Shown here one piece after another: positions 5,812 through 16,516 of a stretch of DNA of 64,000 nucleotides. Origin of the DNA: Vibrio echinoideorum. GTDB taxonomy: Bacteria; Pseudomonadota; Gammaproteobacteria; Enterobacterales; Vibrionaceae. A program made the translations under genes and the position numbers. Every line of letters starts with the position of its first letter. The first letter of the stretch is position 1. The stretch is taken from NCBI RefSeq assembly GCF_024347455.1, contig NZ_AP025483.1, positions 806,001-870,000 on the forward strand, given 5' to 3'. Below the pieces are notes generated by a model. The model was not told where the DNA came from, ran no database searches, and saw nothing but the letters and a program-made list of their open reading frames with translations.

Positions 5812-6099
5812 TTATTGTTCAGTTAATTTGGCTTCAAGCGTGGCAACGCGAGCGGTAAGTTCGAGAATTTGCTTTTCTAGTTGGCTAACACGATCGAGTG
5901 CTGGCGCTTCTTGTGTCGCAACTTCCACTTTAGGGACGCGATTGGCTGTTTTCCAGCTCTTGATGGTTGTGATTAAAGCGGGCATAGGAACGGATGTACT
6001 CATGCGAGCCTTAACTAAAGCAACTGTCGGCTCTTTCCCTTGTGCTTGTAGTCCTTCAAGCACCGATTTTAACTCTTCAGACACATCTTTAGTGAGCAT
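5812..6099 (-). CDS. Small KfrA_N-like putative DNA-binding protein
   Basis: 95 residues from the ATG at 6099. I prefer this start because GGAGGT (complement of 6104-6109) lies four bases before it, whereas an ATG four codons further upstream has no ribosome-binding site and would swallow this one. Residues 1-55 contain the pattern GKEPTVALVKARM..PMPALITTIKSWK, which resembles the N-terminal DNA-binding region of KfrA plasmid proteins (GxxPTxxxVR followed by a helix). Residues 70-95 form a short leucine-rich coiled coil (LEKQILELTARVATLEAKL). A chromosomal protein of this size without the long KfrA coiled coil is not one I can name. It may be a nucleoid-associated or regulatory protein; this is inference. 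Confidence 0.65.
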   Translation of the reverse strand: MLTKDVSEELKSVLEGLQAQGKEPTVALVKARMSTSVPMPALITTIKSWKTANRVPKVEVATQEAPALDRVSQLEKQILELTARVATLEAKLTEQ

Positions 6100-6176
6100 G
6101 CTGACCTCCATTTTTAGTCTTTTTCTATTTTACTCGCTCGAGTGAATGATAGCGAATCATAAAAGCGCCTATGGCT

Positions 6177-6194
6177 TGTGAGAGATCTCTTACA
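6177..6194 (+). promoter_or_regulatory. GacA/UvrY/VarA-type upstream activating site
   Basis: TGTGAG-agatct-CTTACA matches the response-regulator consensus TGTAAG-N6-CTTACA with one mismatch. It lies about 166 bases upstream of the predicted start of the CsrB-type RNA, the kind of distance at which GacA/UvrY sites act on csrB and rsm genes. In Vibrio the cognate regulator is VarA. Confidence 0.75.
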
Positions 6195-6317
6195 AAGGTT
6201 GTGAGATAACACGAATATATCTTTAGAGAGATTGATGTGCATATGGTTAAGGCTCTGATTTTTAGTTGTTTTATTTAATTAACAACTTGGTTGAATTAAA
6301 AGTGTGATGCAAATCTA

Positions 6318-6345
6318 TTGTCCAAAATCTTAAATCGCGTAAATT
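6318..6345 (+). promoter_or_regulatory. Putative promoter of the CsrB-type RNA
   Basis: TTGTCC at 6318-6323 and TAAATT at 6340-6345 with 16 bases between them place transcription start near 6352. That is just before the first GGA motif of the RNA. Confidence 0.5.
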
Positions 6346-6351
6346 AAACCT

Positions 6352-6760
6352 TGTCGGAAGGATTCTGACACGGAACAGGAAAGCACCAAGGATTTGGTTA
6401 TCTTCAGGATGAAGATTTGGTTACTTAGGATTGAGTGATCAAGCATGGAGCGTAAGGACATTGTAGGGATACAGACAGTTAACAGGAAGTTAGCTGCAAC
6501 GGAATGACAATGGACACCTTTAGGACAAAGGGTTGGATTAGCATCAGGATGATGTAAAGGACACCGCTCACGGAACAAGTGATGTGCGCTAACTAGGATT
6601 GTTAGCTTTCAGGATGATTGGGACACCGCTAGGACGGCGAAGTAAAGGAAAGAGCTGAAGGATTACAGCCACTATTATGGATGATGCATGGAGCATTAAT
6701 TAGTAGCCGGACTGCTGCGAGTAAGACCCTAGCCCTGACACTTCGGTGTCGGGGCTTTTC
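6352..6760 (+). ncRNA. csrB: CsrB-family regulatory RNA that sequesters CsrA
   Basis: A stretch of about 410 bases with no credible protein gene but some 27 GGA trinucleotides on the plus strand, most as AGGA, CGGA or TGGA in hairpin-loop-like contexts. The sequence CAGGATGA occurs three times (near 6405, 6545 and 6611). This is the hallmark of CsrB/CsrC/RsmZ RNAs, each of which binds many CsrA dimers through GGA loops and so relieves CsrA repression or activation of target mRNAs. The RNA ends in a strong terminator. The GacA-type site upstream completes the BarA/UvrY (VarS/VarA) picture. Vibrios usually carry several CsrB copies; which number this is cannot be told. The 5' end is predicted from the promoter only. 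Confidence 0.9.
6731..6760 (+). terminator. Intrinsic terminator of the CsrB-type RNA
   Basis: An 11-base-pair stem (agccctgacac with gtgtcggggct, one G-U pair) capped by a stable TTCG tetraloop and followed by TTTT. Confidence 0.9.
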
Positions 6761-6863
6761 TTTATCTAGGCACTTTGTTACCTGGGCGCTTTTTATCTAA
6801 GAGATTTTTATCTAAAAGCCTTGCATCTGCTTTCCTGCTAATGGTCAACACAAGGAGTGTTTT

Positions 6864-7382
6864 ATGACAATAGCAACTTCAAGAACGCTGTTGGTACCTT
6901 ATACCGAGCAGTTAGAACATGACTTTATCAAGTTGAATTGCAGCCCCATTAATCGTGCTGAAATGAATGGGCCGCACTCGATCACTTCTGCAAAACACTT
7001 ATTTCAAGACATATTGAACGATAATGTTGGTTTTTGTCGGGCTATTATCCATAACCAAACCCGGGAGTACCTTGGGCATCTGTTTATTTCATCTGAAGGT
7101 GAGAAACATGAACTGGGTTTTATTCTGGATAAAGAACATTGGCATCAAGGGCTAGCGAGTGAGGTGTTGAAGCCATTTTTTGGTTTGGCTTGTTTTGAAA
7201 AGCACTTAACGAGTGTTATTGCGACGGTCAATGTTGGTCATAACCCATCCATTAAGTTACTCGAAAAGTTAGGCTTTGCATTTAAAGAGACCAAACAAGA
7301 TCAGTTTGGCCCCTATCATGAATATCGTTATACCAATTATTGTGATGTTACATTCTATGAGGCTGTAGCTCAAAGCGCATAG
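6864..7382 (+). CDS. GNAT-family N-acetyltransferase (RimJ/RimL-like)
   Basis: 172 residues with the layout of a GCN5-related acetyltransferase using acetyl-CoA. An early TSRTLLVPYTEQ strand is followed by ELGFILDKEHWHQGLASEVLKPFFGLACFE at about residues 86-115, which is the strand 4, acetyl-CoA loop and helix region. VNVGHNPSIKLLEKLGFAFKET then gives the classic N-xxS-xxLxxKxGF motif near residues 123-144. The closest type is RimJ/RimL, which acetylate ribosomal protein N-termini, but many of these modify other amines. The substrate is unknown. Start ATG has AAGGAG at 6852-6857. The 3' end overlaps the convergent DUF3301 gene by 35 bases. Confidence 0.85.
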   Translation: MTIATSRTLLVPYTEQLEHDFIKLNCSPINRAEMNGPHSITSAKHLFQDILNDNVGFCRAIIHNQTREYLGHLFISSEGEKHELGFILDKEHWHQGLASEVLKPFFGLACFEKHLTSVIATVNVGHNPSIKLLEKLGFAFKETKQDQFGPYHEYRYTNYCDVTFYEAVAQSA

Positions 7383-8840: not shown

Positions 8841-9155
8841 ATGACAGTTGCCACAAAGTTACCTCTTTTACTTCAACAATTAGAACGACAAATGCGCCAG
8901 TGTTCTTTATGGAGCAGTTCTCCTCCATCGGAAGAAGCGTTGGCGAGCGTTGAACCTTTTGCTATTGATTTGTTACCACCTGAAGAGTGGTTGCAGTGGA
9001 TCTTTATCGTTAAGATCAACGCAATGATGGATGCGCAAATGAATTTACCAAAAGGTTTTGCTATCTATCCTTATTTTAGTGAAGTGTGGAAAAATGAGGC
9101 AGACAAAGCCGAATTGCTAGTGACAATTCAGAGCATTGATGAGGTATGTGCGTAA
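8841..9155 (+). CDS. yqcC: YqcC-family protein
   Basis: 104 residues of the YqcC (DUF446) family. Typical features are LLLQQLERQMRQCSLWSSSPPSEEALASVEPFAIDLLPPEEWLQWIFIVKINAMMD, in which the PF-x-x-D and EWLQWIF motifs are conserved. The structure of such proteins is a helical bundle; the function is not established. As in E. coli it is followed directly by truC: its TAA overlaps the truC ATG by one base, so expression is coupled. This constant linkage hints at a role near tRNA modification, but that is inference. Confidence 0.88.
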   Translation: MTVATKLPLLLQQLERQMRQCSLWSSSPPSEEALASVEPFAIDLLPPEEWLQWIFIVKINAMMDAQMNLPKGFAIYPYFSEVWKNEADKAELLVTIQSIDEVCA

Positions 9156-9904
9156 TGCTAGAGATCATTTATCAAGATGAGTATTTTGTCGCAGTGAACA
9201 AGCCTGCGGGCATGTTGGTCCATCGCTCATGGTTGGATAAACATGAGACACAATTTGTGATGCAAACACTGCGTGACCAAATTGGTCAGCACGTATTTCC
9301 ACTGCACCGTTTAGATCGCCCAACATCCGGTGTGTTGGTGTTTGCGTTGTCGAGCGAGGTTGCTTCACAGGTGATGCCGATGTTCGCGAACCATGAGATG
9401 CAAAAAACATATCATGCGATTGTTCGTGGCTGGATAGAAGAGGGTGACACTTTAGATTACGCACTCAAGGTAGAGCTAGATAAGATTGCAGACAAATTTG
9501 CAAAAGAAGATAAAGAACCACAAGAAGCGGTAACCGTTTACGAGCCGCTAGCAAAAGTTGAAGTGCCATACTCAACAGGCCGTTTTCCTACCAGTCGCTA
9601 CTGTTTGGTTGAGATGATGCCAAAGACAGGGCGAAAACATCAATTACGTCGCCATATGGCACACCTAAGACACCCTATCGTTGGTGATACTTCACATGGT
9701 GACGGCAAACACAATCGACTGTTCCGTGATGATTTAGACTCGCACCGTCTGTTATTGCACGCCTCTGAGTTGCGCTTCATCCACCCTTTTACAAAAAAAG
9801 AGTTAGTGATGAAGGCTAACCTAGATGAAACGTGGTTAAGATTATTTGAAACCTTTGAGTGGAATATAGATTTACTTAATGCTGAATTTCGCTGTTTCAA
9901 GTAA
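9155..9904 (+). CDS. truC: tRNA pseudouridine(65) synthase TruC
   Basis: 249 residues from the ATG at 9155. It converts uridine 65 in the T stem of some tRNAs to pseudouridine. It belongs to the RluA-type synthases, with the catalytic motif HRLDRPTSGVLVFA (about residues 51-64), whose aspartate is the nucleophile. KPAGMLVHRS precedes it and PKTGRKHQLRRHMAHLRHPIVGD follows. I chose this start rather than one three codons earlier because the one-base overlap with yqcC (TAATG) is the usual arrangement and the TruC family starts MLEIIYQDEYFVAVNKP. It is followed by a strong hairpin. Confidence 0.95.
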   Translation: MLEIIYQDEYFVAVNKPAGMLVHRSWLDKHETQFVMQTLRDQIGQHVFPLHRLDRPTSGVLVFALSSEVASQVMPMFANHEMQKTYHAIVRGWIEEGDTLDYALKVELDKIADKFAKEDKEPQEAVTVYEPLAKVEVPYSTGRFPTSRYCLVEMMPKTGRKHQLRRHMAHLRHPIVGDTSHGDGKHNRLFRDDLDSHRLLLHASELRFIHPFTKKELVMKANLDETWLRLFETFEWNIDLLNAEFRCFK

Positions 9905-9928
9905 GAGATCAAAATAGAAAGTAGAACA

Positions 9929-9964
9929 AAAAAAAAGGGCTGATAGTGATATCAGCCCTTTTTT
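9929..9964. terminator. Bidirectional intrinsic terminator between truC and yaeH
   Basis: aagggctgat pairs with atcagccctt around a six-base loop, flanked by A-run and T-run, so it can end both convergent transcripts. Confidence 0.88.
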
Positions 9965-10025
9965 GATTTCTGTGCAATTTGAATGAAATAGCTAGAATTT
10001 AATAGCGATTTCGTTTATCGCAGGA

Positions 10026-10409
10026 TCATTTCAGCTTTGCTAGATCCGCTTCGATCTCGGAGATCTTGCTCGAAACCACTTTCTCTAAGTGGCGCAAGTC
10101 GGTGAGGATCTTCTGCTTCACATCCACCTCAGTGGTTGGCGTAGGTTTGGTAATCTTATTTAGCTCATCAATCACAAGAGTGAGGTTGCGGTTTATCTCA
10201 GTCACTTCTTTGTATTGATTATTGCCACCACTAACAAGCACACTTTTCACTTGTCGTGGGTACTTGAACTTGACGCTTTTCGCGAACAATTCGCCTTTCT
10301 GTTTACGAAAGTAAATCTTGAGAATATCTTTATGTGCTTCTTGGCGAAGGGAGTAACGTTCAATCTGTTTAGGTTCGTGGATACCTAAGCCAGTGAGGTT
10401 TGGATACAT
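10026..10409 (-). CDS. yaeH: YaeH, UPF0325 (DUF3461) family protein
   Basis: 127 residues, nearly collinear with E. coli YaeH (128). It starts [25 protein letters not shown], contains [26 protein letters not shown], and ends with a helical [24 protein letters not shown] coiled coil. The function is unknown. It lies 239 bases downstream of glnD on the same strand. In E. coli dapD is beside glnD and yaeH is close by, so the neighbourhood is partly kept, with dapD missing here. Confidence 0.93.
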
Positions 10410-10648
10410 AAGCGACCTCTAGTTTATGAATGTAATACTTTTATGTAATTGACTTAATCAATGTAGCAGCCTAATGACGAGCTAGATAGTTGATATATGG
10501 GAATTGATTGTAAGTTGTGGGCAAGATCGCTCTCTATCTTTACCCACACTTACTCGGCTATTAAACCTGTTATATAAGGTCAAACTTATTTTCTAGATCT
10601 GAATGTATTTCCCTGATCTAAATTGATTTCTATCGCCAAATCCTTTTT

Positions 10649-13270
10649 CTAGGGCGCGAGTTCAGAAACATGCTCAGTTAACCTTTCTCTTAACGCTTGT
10701 TCCTGTTCCTCTGAAAGCCTTCCTCCAGCTTCACTGGTTAGAATAAATAAATCTTCTGCACGTTCACCTATGGTGGTGATTTTCGCACCATGTAAATTAA
10801 TGTCCAATTCAGCAAAGGTCGCACCTACTTGAGCCAGCAGCCCCGGTGTGTCGAGCGCTCTTAACTCCATCAAGGTGCGTTTTTTACTCTTGGTTGGTAG
10901 AAATTCAACCAAAGTCTTCACTTTGAAATGCTGTAAGTTACGAGGTGTGCGACGTGTTTTGATCTTAGTTGGGCGACCATCGGCTAGAACATGGGTCAGG
11001 TGTTTGGCGACGGCTTTATGCCTTGCTTCATCAATCGCTTTACCATGTTGGTCTAGAACAATAAAAGTATCCAAAACATGTCCGTCTTTACTGACCATCA
11101 CCTGCGCATCATGAACGTTAAAGTTACGTCGATCGAGTTCGGCAACCACAGTCGCGAACAGTGCGGCTTGGTCTTTACAGTAAACAAAGACTTCAGTACC
11201 GCCACGAGTGGCTTTCTTACTGATCAGTACTAAAGGTTGGCTTGGGTCTTCTAAGCGAAGCAGATGTTCACAATGCCAAGCAATTTGCTTGTGTGTATGA
11301 CGTAAGAAGTAGTCAGCTTTGAAACGCTGCCAAAGCACTTCAATTTCACGCGCAGTGAAGCCTTCTTTACGTAGCAATGCTGAGGCCATTTGTTGGTTGT
11401 GGCGAATACGGTCTCTTACATCGACCGGGTTTTCTAAACCACGGCGCAGTGCTCTTTGTGTTGAATGAAACAATTCAGCCAACAAAGTGCGCTTCCAGCT
11501 GTTCCATAGTTCAGGGTTGGTTGCACAAATGTCTGCAACGGTTAGGCAAACGAGCAGCTCCAACGACTCTTCATCGCGAACTTTCTTGGCGAATTCGGTG
11601 ATCACTTCTGGGTCATGGATATCACGGCGCTGAGCGGTAACAGACATTAACAGGTGATTTTGTACCAACCATGATACTTGTTTGGCTTCTGGTTTCGATA
11701 ATCCATGCTCAATACAGAAAGAGTAAGCCTCGACGGCGCCAATTTCTGAGTGGTCTCCACCACGGCCTTTACCGATGTCATGAAAGATAGCCGCAAGAAT
11801 CAGTAATTCTTTCTTCTGAACGCGTGGATACACTTCACAACAAATAGGGTGTTTGTCGTGGTTTTCTATTTGGCCGAAACGGTTAATATGCTTGAGAAGA
11901 CGAATACTGTGCTCATCAACGGTGTAAGCGTGGAAAAGGTCAAATTGCATCTGACCAACAATTTGGCTCCACTGCGGCAAATACGCTGATAGCACGCCTA
12001 ACTTGTGCATCAAGCTAAAGGCTTTGTGCAGAGCATTCGGGTGGCGAACCAGTGCCATGAATTTGTCACGTGCTTCAGGGATGGTATGCAGGAAGCGGTT
12101 TAATCGGCGACGTGCCGTACGCAGTTGTCGCAAGGTTGGTGGGCTGACCCCTTCGATGGAAGAGTCGTTAGCGATATGGATAAACATATCGAGAATTGTT
12201 TCCGGACGAGCTTGGAATAGGGCGGGCTTACGGGCTTCGATCAGTGAACCTCGACGCTGGAAGTCGTTATCGAGAATTTCCGCTTCTTGCGTCTCACCGC
12301 CATTGATGATCGCTTGATCAAACAACTTAAGCAGCATCTTATTGAGCTCTGCTACGCGACGAAGTGTTCGGTAGAATTCCTTCATCATCATTTCAACGCC
12401 ACGGTTTCCTTCACCGGTATAACCTAGATGTTCGGCGACTTGAGCTTGGTGTGCGAACGTTAAACGGTTGTCGTAACGGCGCAGTTCAATATGCAATGCA
12501 AAGCGAACACGCCATAGGAAATCTTGGCATTCAACTAACTCACGATACTCGGCATCGGTAAGAAAGCCGTACTTACTCATCTCTAGTAAAGATGTCGCAC
12601 CGAAGTGTCGACGTGCTACCCAGCTTAACGTGTGGATGTCTCGTAAGCCGCCAGGGGTTGATTTGATATCAGGTTCTAGATTGTAAGTGGTGTCGTGGTA
12701 GCGAGCATGACGCTCTCTTTGTTCTTGAATCTTAGCTTTGTAGAAGGTCTCACTTGGCCAAAATGAATCAGAATGGATTTTTAGCTTAAGTTCTTGAAAG
12801 GTGTCTTCGCTGCCACACAATAAGCGTGACTCTTGCAGGTTAGTGGCAACGGTTAAATCATCGGTGCCGATATCAAGACACTCTGCAATGGTACGCACGG
12901 CGTGACCAACTTCGAGTTTCAAGTCCCAGAGTAGGGTAATGAATTGACTGACCTTTTCGCCTAGTGCTGGTGGTAGTGTTTTTTGCGAGACGATTAAAAT
13001 ATCAATGTCAGATAGAGGATGAAGCTCACCTCGACCATAACCACCTACCGCGACAAGGGCAATATGAGGCAGTTTGTTGAATCCTAAGTGCTCCCATAAT
13101 CGATTGAGAAGTAAGTCCATGTATTCGGACCGCAGCAGTACCAGGTCGGTAACTGGGTGATGATTCAGAAATTCACTTTTTTGATACTGCGTGAAGATTT
13201 CGAGCTGATTTTTTAATTCGCAGATTTCAATTTGTTCGTCATTGAACGTAAGAGGGCATTGATAAGGCAT
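10649..13270 (-). CDS. glnD: [Protein-PII] uridylyltransferase / uridylyl-removing enzyme GlnD
   Basis: 873 residues, the usual GlnD length. It senses glutamine and adds or removes UMP on the PII protein, thereby controlling glutamine synthetase and NtrB. Domains in order: nucleotidyltransferase with VGGYGRGELHPLSDIDILI (about residues 75-93, catalytic D88 and D90); a helical linker with PGGLRDIHTLSWVARR; an HD hydrolase domain with FHDIGKGRGGDHSEIG near residue 495; and two C-terminal ACT domains (about residues 690-770 and 800-870) that bind glutamine. Its substrate GlnB is encoded in this same window at 36.3 kb. It follows map on the minus strand but a terminator separates them. Confidence 0.98.
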   Translation of the reverse strand: MPYQCPLTFNDEQIEICELKNQLEIFTQYQKSEFLNHHPVTDLVLLRSEYMDLLLNRLWEHLGFNKLPHIALVAVGGYGRGELHPLSDIDILIVSQKTLPPALGEKVSQFITLLWDLKLEVGHAVRTIAECLDIGTDDLTVATNLQESRLLCGSEDTFQELKLKIHSDSFWPSETFYKAKIQEQRERHARYHDTTYNLEPDIKSTPGGLRDIHTLSWVARRHFGATSLLEMSKYGFLTDAEYRELVECQDFLWRVRFALHIELRRYDNRLTFAHQAQVAEHLGYTGEGNRGVEMMMKEFYRTLRRVAELNKMLLKLFDQAIINGGETQEAEILDNDFQRRGSLIEARKPALFQARPETILDMFIHIANDSSIEGVSPPTLRQLRTARRRLNRFLHTIPEARDKFMALVRHPNALHKAFSLMHKLGVLSAYLPQWSQIVGQMQFDLFHAYTVDEHSIRLLKHINRFGQIENHDKHPICCEVYPRVQKKELLILAAIFHDIGKGRGGDHSEIGAVEAYSFCIEHGLSKPEAKQVSWLVQNHLLMSVTAQRRDIHDPEVITEFAKKVRDEESLELLVCLTVADICATNPELWNSWKRTLLAELFHSTQRALRRGLENPVDVRDRIRHNQQMASALLRKEGFTAREIEVLWQRFKADYFLRHTHKQIAWHCEHLLRLEDPSQPLVLISKKATRGGTEVFVYCKDQAALFATVVAELDRRNFNVHDAQVMVSKDGHVLDTFIVLDQHGKAIDEARHKAVAKHLTHVLADGRPTKIKTRRTPRNLQHFKVKTLVEFLPTKSKKRTLMELRALDTPGLLAQVGATFAELDINLHGAKITTIGERAEDLFILTSEAGGRLSEEQEQALRERLTEHVSELAP

Positions 13271-13349
13271 AGTCTGCTATCCGTGCAAGCAAATGAGAAT
13301 AGTAAACAATTTAACAGATGCTGATGGAAAATCGAAATTGAGCAGATAA

Positions 13350-13381
13350 AAAAATATCCTCGACAATGCGAGGATATTTTT
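13350..13381 (-). terminator. Intrinsic terminator after map
   Basis: A 13-base-pair stem (aaaaatatcctcg with cgaggatattttt) around a six-base loop, between map and glnD on the minus strand. Confidence 0.82.
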
Positions 13382-13409
13382 AAAAGGCTGATGCGTTCAG
13401 TTTGATGAA

Positions 13410-14288
13410 CTAAGCGTTCTTCATGATACGTGGAATAGTATCATCGCTGCGCAGGGTTAGTACTTCACAACCAGTATCGGTAACAACCAATGTGTGTTCC
13501 CATTGTGCAGAGTTCTTGCTGTCTGCTGTGTATACTGTCCAGCTATCTTCGTCATCTAGACGACAGCCAAACTTACCAGCGTTGATCATTGGCTCAATAG
13601 TGAAACACATTCCCGATTTTAGCACTGTGCGGTCGTTGTTCTTGTAGTGTACGACTTGTGGATCTTCGTGGAACTCAGAACCAATGCCGTGGCCACAGTA
13701 ATCTTTTACAATCGAGAACTTAGCGCGTGGGTTGTTCTTGTTGTTTGTCTTGATGTACTTCTCGATAGCAGTACCGATCTGACCAAGTTGAACCCCAGGC
13801 TTAACTTGACGCATACCTTCGTAAAGTGCTTCTTGAGCAACCATACATAGACGCTTGTTTGCAGGTGAAACTTCACCAACAAGGAACATCTTAGAAGTGT
13901 CACCGTGGTAACCTTGTGGGCGAACGCTTAGGTCTGCGTTTTCGTCATCAGGAACAATCACAGTGATATCAACATTCAGAATGTCGCCGTCTTTTAGTAC
14001 TGCAGGTTTGAATTGACCTGTGCTGCCAGTCTCATCTTGTGATGCTGGAATACCATGACACACGATGTGGTTGATAGACGTACAGATTGACTTAGGGAAA
14101 CCGTGGTAATCAAGTGGTGCTGAATATGCGCCTCTTTCTAGAGCGTACTCGTGACAGATTTTGTTCAGTTCTTCTGTCGTTGTACCTACTTGGATGTGAG
14201 GTTCAATCATCTCTAGAATTTCAGAAGCCAGCTTGCCGGCAACGCGCATTTTTTCAATTTCTTCAGCAGTTTTAATTTTTACAGCCAT
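13410..14288 (-). CDS. map: Type I methionine aminopeptidase
   Basis: 292 residues from the ATG at 14288 (MAVKIKTAEEIEKMRVAGKLASEIL), the standard MetAP opening. An upstream frame extension of 31 codons is not credible. It removes the initiator methionine from nascent proteins. The metal ligands of the pita-bread fold are visible in NVDITV, HGDTSKMF, GHGIGSEFHEDPQV, CFTIEPM and WEHTLVV. The protein is about 28 residues longer than E. coli Map (264). The extra residues lie in a segment after the first metal ligand (VPDDENADLSVRPQG), near TNNKNNPRAKF, and in the DSWTVYTADSKNSAQ loop. It is divergent from rpsB, as in E. coli. Confidence 0.97.
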   Translation of the reverse strand: MAVKIKTAEEIEKMRVAGKLASEILEMIEPHIQVGTTTEELNKICHEYALERGAYSAPLDYHGFPKSICTSINHIVCHGIPASQDETGSTGQFKPAVLKDGDILNVDITVIVPDDENADLSVRPQGYHGDTSKMFLVGEVSPANKRLCMVAQEALYEGMRQVKPGVQLGQIGTAIEKYIKTNNKNNPRAKFSIVKDYCGHGIGSEFHEDPQVVHYKNNDRTVLKSGMCFTIEPMINAGKFGCRLDDEDSWTVYTADSKNSAQWEHTLVVTDTGCEVLTLRSDDTIPRIMKNA

Positions 14289-14518
14289 TGCATATCTCTT
14301 AATTTGGTAGCACCTAAGTGTGCATATTGGGGCTATTCTATCAGTGCAGCATTTTAGCGCAACATTCCCATGTCCGTACAATGTTGGTGGATACTGCTCA
14401 ATCTGAGTAGATAATGTTCGGTTTAATGACGCAGACGCGATTTGAATAGGACACTATTTTATAGAGAAAATTCACCGCTAGGGATCAGTATAGCAGTCGC
14501 CATTTGTAGATTTTTTTC

Positions 14519-14548
14519 TAGCCATAGATAGACAAAATATGGTATAAA
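14519..14548 (+). promoter_or_regulatory. Putative stringent-type promoter of rpsB-tsf
   Basis: TATAAA at 14543-14548 is followed at once by the GC-rich stretch gcgcgccgg, the discriminator typical of ribosomal promoters under ppGpp control. The -35 (about 14519-14524) is weak. It leaves a leader of about 190 bases before rpsB. Confidence 0.5.
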
Positions 14549-14639
14549 GCGCGCCGGACATCAGGACTGTTTTCTCCATTTGGCGAAACAAGCTTTGTGT
14601 CTACTAACTTATTTCTTTAAATCACACACATTCCGACAC

Positions 14640-14746
14640 ATGTTCCGGGGTGCCTCAACAACACAGATAACGGCTGAAAAGTGGTTAGTTGTTAGGGGTC
14701 GGATTCATGGGGAGTGTGGAGGCCTAACCCCATAGAGGATTTTAAA
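14640..14746 (+). promoter_or_regulatory. rpsB leader (t44-type, S2 autoregulatory element)
   Basis: The conserved gammaproteobacterial rpsB leader. gttagg (14691-14696) can pair with cctaac (14723-14728), and atgggg (14707-14712) with ccccat (14728-14733). The two downstream partners abut and sit just before the ribosome-binding site AGAGGA (14734-14739), giving the pseudoknot-like fold known from Rfam t44/rpsB leaders. In E. coli S2 represses rpsB-tsf translation through this region. Exact 5' limit is not known. The rest of the 458-base map-rpsB gap holds the two divergent promoters and nothing else I recognise. Confidence 0.8.
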
Positions 14747-15481
14747 ATGGCAACTGTATCAATGCGCGATATGCTTAAAGCTGGTGTTCACTTCGGTCAC
14801 CAAACTCGTTACTGGAACCCAAAAATGAAGCCATTCATCTTTGGTGCTCGTAGCAAAGTTCATATCATCAACTTAGAAAAAACTGTACCAATGTTCAACG
14901 AAGCTCTAGCTGAAATTGCTAAAGTTGGCGAGAAGAAAGGTAAAGTTCTTTTTGTTGGTACTAAGCGTGCTGCATCTGAAGCTGTTAAAGAAGCTGCTAT
15001 CAACAGCAACCAGTTCTACGTTAACAACCGCTGGTTAGGCGGTATGCTAACGAACTACAAAACTGTTCGTCAGTCTATCAAGCGTCTGAAAGAACTTGAA
15101 GCGCAAGCTCAAGACGGTACTTTCGACAAGCTTACTAAGAAAGAAGCTCTAATGCGTACTCGCGAAATGGAGAAGCTAGAGAAATCTCTTGGTGGTATCA
15201 AGAACATGGGCGGCCTACCTGACGCTCTATTCGTAATCGATGCTGATCACGAACACATCGCAGTTAAAGAAGCTAACAACCTAGGTATCCCAGTTTACGC
15301 TGTAGTTGATACTAACTCTAACCCAGACGGCATTGACTTCATCATTCCTGGTAATGACGATGCAATCCGTGCAGTACAGCTTTACCTTAACGCTGCTGCT
15401 GACGCGGTTAAAGAAGGCCGTAACAAAGACGTTGTTATCGCTGCTGCTGCTGAAAAAGACGGTTTCGTAGAAGCTGAATAA
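14747..15481 (+). CDS. rpsB: 30S ribosomal protein S2
   Basis: 244 residues from the ATG at 14747, preceded by AGAGGA. An in-frame start 33 bases upstream would lie in the leader structure and is rejected. It is an essential small-subunit protein needed for S1 binding. Opening [33 protein letters not shown] and the later [19 protein letters not shown] are diagnostic. The C-terminal acidic helix is normal. Codon choice is strongly biased toward GGT, GCT and CTT/CTA codons, as expected for a highly expressed gene. It heads the rpsB-tsf operon, with an attenuator hairpin before tsf. Confidence 0.99.
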
Positions 15482-15557
15482 TAGCGGCTCTGAGCCATAT
15501 TTAGTTCATATTCAGGTGTCATATTGATATTTGAAGCAAGCTAAATACAGTCAATAT

Positions 15558-15587
15558 CAGGGGCCATTTAATGAGGCCCCTGTTTTT
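15558..15587 (+). terminator. Attenuator/terminator between rpsB and tsf
   Basis: caggggcc pairs with ggcccctg around a nine-base loop and is followed by six T. It probably lets only part of the transcripts reach tsf, which sets the S2 to EF-Ts ratio. Confidence 0.85.
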
Positions 15588-15619
15588 TATCTTTTTTAGA
15601 ATTAACTGAGGAATAGAGA

Positions 15620-16465
15620 ATGGCAACTGTAACTGCAGCTCTAGTTAAAGAACTTCGTGAACGCACAGCTGCGGGCATGATGGAATGTAAAAAAGCGCTT
15701 GTTGCTGCTGAAGGCGACATCGAGCTAGCAATTGAAAATATGCGTAAATCTGGCGCAGCGAAAGCAGCTAAAAAAGCTGGTAACGTTGCTGCAGAAGGCA
15801 CAATCGTTATTAAAGAAGACGCTGGCGTTGCTGCTCTTCTTGAAGTTAACTGCCAAACTGATTTCGTAGCTAAAGATGCAGGTTTCCTTGCATTCGCTAA
15901 CGAAGTTGCTGAAGCTGCTCTAGCAGAGCGTTTAGATATCGTTGCACTTCAAGCTAAGTTTGAAGACGCACGTATTGCGCTAGTAACTAAAATCGGTGAA
16001 AACATCAGCATCCGTCGCGTTGAGCTAATCGAAGGTGTTGCACTTGCTTCTTACCGTCACGGCGAGAAAATCGGTGTTGTTGTTGCTGGTGAAGGCGAAG
16101 CTGAAACGCTTAAGCACATCGCTATGCACGTTGCTGCTTCTAAGCCTGAGTACGTTAACCCATCTGACGTACCTGCTGACGTAGTAGAAAAAGAAAAAGC
16201 TGTTCAAGTTGAAATCGCTATGAACGAAGGCAAGCCTCAAGAGATCGCTGAGAAAATGGTTATCGGCCGTATGAAGAAATTCACGGGCGAAGTATCTCTT
16301 ACTGGTCAAGCTTTCATCATGGAACCTAAGAAAACTGTTGCTGACATTCTTAAAGAAAAAGGCGCATCAGTTACTACCTTCGTTCGTTTAGAAGTTGGTG
16401 AAGGTATCGAGAAAGCTGCTGAAATGAGCTTCGCAGACGAAGTTGCAGCGGTACAACAAGGTTAA
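15620..16465 (+). CDS. tsf: Elongation factor Ts
   Basis: 281 residues, about the length of E. coli EF-Ts (283). It exchanges GDP for GTP on EF-Tu. The N-terminal UBA-like domain reads [31 protein letters not shown]; the core contains the TDFVAKD motif that contacts EF-Tu (residues about 79-85). Two subdomains and the coiled-coil follow, ending in [28 protein letters not shown] is preceded by GAGGAA (15608-15613). It is followed by a terminator, which separates it from pyrH. Confidence 0.99.
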
Positions 16466-16484
16466 TCCTTAGCGTATTGATTGA

Positions 16485-16516
16485 AAAAAGACCGTGGCAA
16501 ATGCTGCGGTCTTTTT
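16485..16516 (+). terminator. Intrinsic terminator after tsf
   Basis: aaaaagaccg pairs with cggtcttttt around a 12-base loop; the T-run is inside and after the right arm. Confidence 0.82.

Follow-up and report, generated by a model that had tools for sequence, protein, structure and literature searches.

In the established Csr pathway the VarS/VarA system activates csrB genes, and the RNAs made from them sequester CsrA. The RsmX/Y/Z and PrrB RNAs of Pseudomonas have a GacA-type box and GGA motifs, as does the locus described here, and are shorter, with fewer GGA motifs, than CsrB. E. coli csrB sits between syd and yqcC.

CsrB copies in Vibrio set the level of free CsrA and, through it, influence quorum sensing and secreted proteases (PMC6262261). 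Four of them, csrB1–4, are described in V. tasmaniensis LGP32, and with them the four-copy situation of the Splendidus clade; by synteny the V. cholerae counterpart of csrB1 is csrC and that of csrB2 is csrB, and no shared synteny was found for V. tasmaniensis csrB3 and csrB4 (PMC6262261). V. cholerae CsrB, CsrC and CsrD carry 28, 23 and 23 GGA motifs, and all three RNAs need VarA (PMC6550530); V. cholerae CsrB3 lies on chromosome II (PMC6883915). In a V. vulnificus varA mutant, csrB1, csrB2, csrB3 and csrC fall, under names that may be used differently there (PMC4409781). V. cholerae csrC thus needs VarA (PMC6550530), whereas LGP32 csrB1 does not: although it carries a VarA box, mutating varA leaves it unaltered and mutating varS raises it, and its stationary-phase level is only 25% lower without sigma-S, with induction still 3-fold (PMC6262261). 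Its discoverers left the factor that drives it unidentified (PMC6262261).

Results

We analysed a 64-kb stretch of DNA, in the following called the window. On sequence evidence, positions 6353-6764 almost certainly encode a sponge RNA of the CsrB family. Among the CsrB copies of this Splendidus-clade Vibrio it is most likely csrB1, the one of V. cholerae csrC type. The features of the locus are:

5812-6111, minus strand: divergent 99-aa open reading frame, a neighbour outside the RNA gene; its start is 65 bases from the VarA box
6177-6194, no strand assigned: predicted VarA/UvrY (GacA-type) box TGTGAGAGATCTCTTACA, an exact match to TGTG[AC]GAGATCTCT[TC]ACA (PMC6262261)
6200-6206, plus strand: putative second VarA/UvrY half-site TGTGAGA, 23 bases after the box start
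6264-6287, no strand assigned: AT-rich inverted repeat AGTTGTT-N10-AACAACT between box and promoter, from sequence and alignments
6303-6318, plus strand: conserved block TGTGATGCAAATCTAT, a weak CRP-like candidate centred near -42, with TGTGA kept in the clade
6318-6323, plus strand: -35-like TTGTCC, from sequence reading and alignment
6340-6345, plus strand: -10-like TAAATT, from sequence reading and alignment
6353-6764, plus strand: CsrB RNA of about 412 nt with 27 GGA, from RF00018, GGA counts, covariation and the E. coli start GTCGACAGG
6731-6764, plus strand: intrinsic terminator, a UUCG-capped hairpin (6731-6756) with a T-rich tail (TTTCTTT), from sequence reading and alignment
6864-7382, plus strand: GNAT-family gene (Pfam PF13302), the downstream neighbour
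8841-9904, plus strand: yqcC (DUF446) and a pseudouridine synthase gene presumed to be truC-like

An earlier note on this DNA had described an unannotated-looking CsrB-type locus and proposed an Rfam covariance search as a check. When run, the search gave an RF00018 (CsrB) match at 6460-6766 (+) that covers the full model (1-356) and scores 87.4 bits against a gathering score of 71 (E = 7e-22); the PrrB and RsmX/Y/Z families gave none at gathering score in the Rfam scan of the window. The assignment to the CsrB type stands, but the gene is not an unknown one, given that the set is catalogued and that 117 of the 118 Vibrio genomes searched, its own included, have a CsrB match at E <= 0.001 (over the cut-off in 114 of 118). 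It is a genuine CsrB, ordinary for its kind. That kind is already known, and so, very probably, is this locus. The match begins 107 nt inside the RNA as we delimit it and leaves 6353-6459 uncovered, so that an annotation from Rfam alone would lose the 5' quarter.

GGA occurs 27 times on the + strand of 6351-6767 (417 bases) and not once on the opposite strand. Dinucleotide-preserving shuffles (2,000) gave a mean of 13.9 (sd 2.5, maximum 22), and the densest other 417-base stretch of the window holds 12 (both strands, steps of 10). Three copies of CAGGATGA start at 6405, 6545 and 6610, a number found in none of 2,000 shuffles. We place the 5' end at about 6353 because the annotated start of E. 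coli CsrB is GTCGACAGG and the window reads GTCGGAAGG there, 7 bases past the -10 element. TTGTCC and TAAATT are 16 bases apart and both are preserved among relatives. The rho-independent terminator that marks the CsrB/RsmB family is present by reading of sequence and alignment. All of this bears out the earlier note, which had listed about 27 GGA on one strand in about 410 bases, the three repeats, a UUCG-capped terminator, a good promoter and TGTGAG-N6-CTTACA about 166 bases upstream; the centre of the box is about 167 bases before the proposed 5' end. Box, promoter, RNA and terminator also agree in order and spacing with known csrB genes, as it had said.

The same note saw nothing protein-coding that would explain the region, and we concur. 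A chance purine-rich or coding sequence imitating CsrB could appeal to the single antisense ORF (82 aa, 6330-6578) that overlaps the RNA, but this ORF has no Pfam match, the E-value of the RF00018 match already refutes such imitation, and the GGA shuffles and the covariation reported below speak against it as well. A fifth CsrB match in the genome (L005, beside a gene that reads as YceI-like), which we rejected as spurious, serves as a yardstick, with 22.7 bits and 2 GGA. We regard imitation as having a negligible chance of being right.

The structure of the CsrB RNA was examined in 17 of 21 csrB1-type sequences; L050 was omitted as a near-duplicate of L048 and L082-L084 for ill-defined 3' ends, and L070 and L079 had their ends adjusted manually. 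The RNAalifold consensus has 78 pairs, with 96.1% of cells paired. Both-side changes occur at 27 of the 78 pairs, no shuffle out of 500 reaches these values and slid versions have at most 12 such pairs, although these controls are biased in favour of the structure, which came from the same alignment that it was tested on. By eye, consensus hairpins that each enclose a GGA in the window row lie at 55-67, 75-96, 132-152, 173-181 and 199-213, with further ones at 247-265, 287-299, 314-329, 345-355 and 364-379. The terminator hairpin (helix 14) keeps its pairs in all 17 rows, with both-side changes at 6 of its 11 pairs. The window RNA by itself folds better than each of 100 shuffles (z = -3.53).

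When the window is aligned with 16 relatives, the core promoter, the 5' part and the terminator prove strongly conserved; the most distant relative, L023, lacks part of the 5' region. The promoter alignment draws on 16 of the 23 loci where the neighbouring gene has a relative; contig ends truncate L018 and L020, and L024-L028 were left out for want of a csrB match. L024 and L025 are Vibrio loci in which blastn found no csrB match and which have no box, so csrB is not universal at this place. In a comparison of seven genomes the box is invariant at 18 of 18 positions, the first 50 transcript bases are 98% conserved and the linker 68%. These values bear on the idea that the gene is a decaying copy, kept by descent only and redundant with the other three. 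The genome does have four copies, and the CsrBs of LGP32 are reported to act redundantly (PMC6262261), but conservation of the box, the core promoter, the RNA and the terminator exceeds that of the linker and the paired positions covary, and we consider decay very improbable.

Four credible CsrB genes were found in the genome, two above and two just below the Rfam threshold, besides the spurious match. Genes at the other copies are called uvrD, tpx, ggt and greB from a reading of their translations. L002 (C1:55433-55746) lies beside tpx/ggt-like genes; L003 (C2:2017553-2017834; 69.9 bits, 16 GGA) is on the second large contig and L004 (C1:3426693-3426974; 64.6 bits, 17 GGA) beside a greB-like gene, both below the gathering score. 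The genome also has one CsrA match and a VarA homologue that is intact: it begins at a TTG, runs to 214 aa and shares 76% identity with E. coli UvrY, and the TAA counted in it agrees with the gene's own stop codon. A sample of the family has a CsrB match in 57 of 61 genomes, and a class-wide RF00018 search with stricter filters gave 1 of 274, the own genome only.

Neighbouring genes and GGA counts make csrB1, of V. cholerae csrC type, the most likely label for the window copy. Its upstream neighbour, the 99-aa ORF, has no Pfam match and recurs beside many csrB1-type copies; 20 of the 23 loci with a relative of it are Vibrio, including V. tasmaniensis, V. splendidus, V. lentus, V. crassostreae and V. 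chagasii, and the remaining three match only weakly and come from archaea and a Firmicutes bin. We take these five species to be members of the Splendidus clade. Such membership is in part stated by PMC6262261, and LGP32 csrB1 has in common with the window genome the clade, the four copies and the upstream VarA box (PMC6262261). A literature search for the gene neighbours of V. cholerae csrB, csrC and csrD found none, and GGA counts were therefore used for the label, which rests on three genomes taken to be V. cholerae-like (G034, G089 and G058). In these the GGA counts are 29, 28 and 29 for the copy linked to uvrD, 23 throughout for the one that has the window's neighbours, and 23, 21 and 22 for the third copy, which the two genomes with two contigs both carry on their other contig. 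Type of neighbourhood and the counts of the V. cholerae-like copies together point, indirectly, to csrB1/csrC.

Were the window copy csrB2 (V. cholerae csrB) instead, strong VarA dependence would be expected. The csrB1 label is indirect, and in this genome the copy linked to uvrD has 27 GGA, as many as the window copy, so that counts cannot separate them here. In the V. cholerae-like genomes, however, 23 GGA go with the window's neighbours and 28-29 with uvrD, matching CsrC and CsrB, and csrC is the partner of csrB1 (PMC6262261). We judge csrB2 unlikely, though it has to be reckoned with, and retain csrB1 as the label.

E. coli csrB is alike in having an identical 18-base box with a second half-site 5 bp downstream, a GTCG start motif, and yqcC downstream on the same strand. 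It differs in that 191 bp separate the start of its box from that of the RNA, against about 176 bp in the window, and that in the window GNAT, DUF3301 and DUF3549 genes stand between csrB and yqcC. Since yqcC and the truC-like gene follow on the same strand after these three genes, the window copy may still sit where the ancestral csrB gene did; syd was not found by eye among the ORFs of 9900-16500.

The box is the sole match to its pattern in the window (+ strand scan of a near-palindromic pattern) and is invariant in all seven genomes compared. An inverted repeat of 18 bases, lying some 170-190 bp upstream, marks genes of the VarA/UvrY/GacA regulon, and this gene has one; measured against the published consensus, the boxes of the genome's four CsrB genes have 0, 0, 1 and 0 mismatches. 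The distance from box start to the GTC[GA] start motif, sought between 170 and 190, is 175-180 in 42 of 44 non-redundant loci, most often 177.

A half-site similar to TGTGAGA follows 4-5 bases past the box in 41 of 44 non-redundant Vibrio csrB loci (other 4-base windows: mean 0.64, maximum 3), as counted with GT(AAG|GAG|GCG|AGG), a pattern picked after viewing those loci. With the stricter, box-derived GT[AG][AC]G the counts are 30 of 38 in Vibrio, 5 of 24 in other genera and 13 of 22 in other families (another choice of representatives gave 5 of 22 and 13 of 22 for the latter two). The looser GT[AG]NG, likewise picked after viewing, matches in 35 of 38, 24 of 24 and 14 of 22 loci. At other positions it averages 0.69, 0.46 and 0.34 matches in the three groups and reaches 4, 4 and 2 at most. 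Rows without a box of at most one mismatch or with too few GGA downstream were removed before counting (1 of 56 loci for the 41/44 count; 1 of 52, 1 of 30 and 7 of 30 for the later patterns), then near-duplicates; the loci are partly selected by the box itself, and box-less promoters stand outside the count. We had considered the half-site as an unreported feature and rejected this, given that PMC4682653 points out TGTAGGAGA at 5 bp past the box in the csrB genes of E. coli and Salmonella. What is added here, as far as sequence comparison goes, is the spread of the half-site through Vibrionaceae; a literature search beyond PMC4682653 found no further mention, which is no proof that the spread is unpublished. 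Its wide occurrence in the family suggests that the functional VarA/UvrY target may exceed the 18-base box.

Discussion

What we observe directly is the anatomy, family membership, conservation and covariation of this gene, and that its genome has csrA and varA. For its action we draw on published Csr systems: VarA would bind the box at 6177-6194, transcription would start about 176 bp downstream of the box start and end at the UUCG hairpin, the many GGA-loop hairpins of the RNA would bind CsrA dimers, and more CsrB RNA would leave less free CsrA through titration.

VarA dependence, which the earlier note expected to see as a loss in a varA mutant, is nevertheless not to be assumed, given the apparent orthologue in LGP32. 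Because that csrB1 is VarA-independent despite its box, a varA-mutant test may fail and the gene be no less a CsrB. There is thus a paradox: the copy is reported to be VarA-independent, yet its VarA box is exact and invariant. The main interest of the locus lies here, in a csrB1 that in the Splendidus clade escapes the usual VarS/VarA switch. The window copy may have a second, VarA-independent activator.

The promoter comparison narrows the hunt for such an activator to one short stretch. TGTGA stands near -42 in 16 of 17 aligned csrB1 rows (the exception is L023) and in all seven genomes of the promoter comparison, but in none of the csrB2 promoters of the same seven, one of which (L156) carries it roughly 9 bases further upstream. 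By eye, it was seen at that place outside the clade in 1 of 17 csrB1-type copies (L052) and in 1 of 17 uvrD-type copies (L037), the latter counting against TGTGA as a mark of csrB1. The three V. cholerae-like csrB1-type copies differ from the window in lacking the block, in having 23 GGA and in a box with one mismatch.

The consensus site of CRP is TGTGA-N6-TCACA, and the right half is poor in TGTGATGCAAATCTAT. CRP effects on csrB and csrC genes are known in enterics (PMC7591399). The TGTGA block is a weak candidate for an activator site of csrB1, because of the poor right half and because close relatives share sequence by descent. A dual-input CsrB, in which the tandem VarA site is intact and a clade-specific activator, possibly CRP, at TGTGATGCAAATCTAT drives the gene alone, would explain the VarA independence of csrB1 in the Splendidus clade; we offer it as a speculative and rather improbable model.

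Some minor observations concern the surroundings of the gene and its relatives. The inverted repeat at 6264-6287 is partly conserved in the clade, with the AACAACT arm kept in the clade's csrB1, and is a possible protein site. E. coli csrB is reported to require an IHF site. Directly before an rpsB-like gene, the window holds an ordinary t44 RNA (rpsB leader; 14605-14728, +, 75.3 bits), which together with CsrB makes up the two Rfam matches above gathering scores in the 64 kb. Several Vibrionaceae genera outside Vibrio have two to four tandem CsrB copies in about 3 kb (for example G624:C34:40856-42693).
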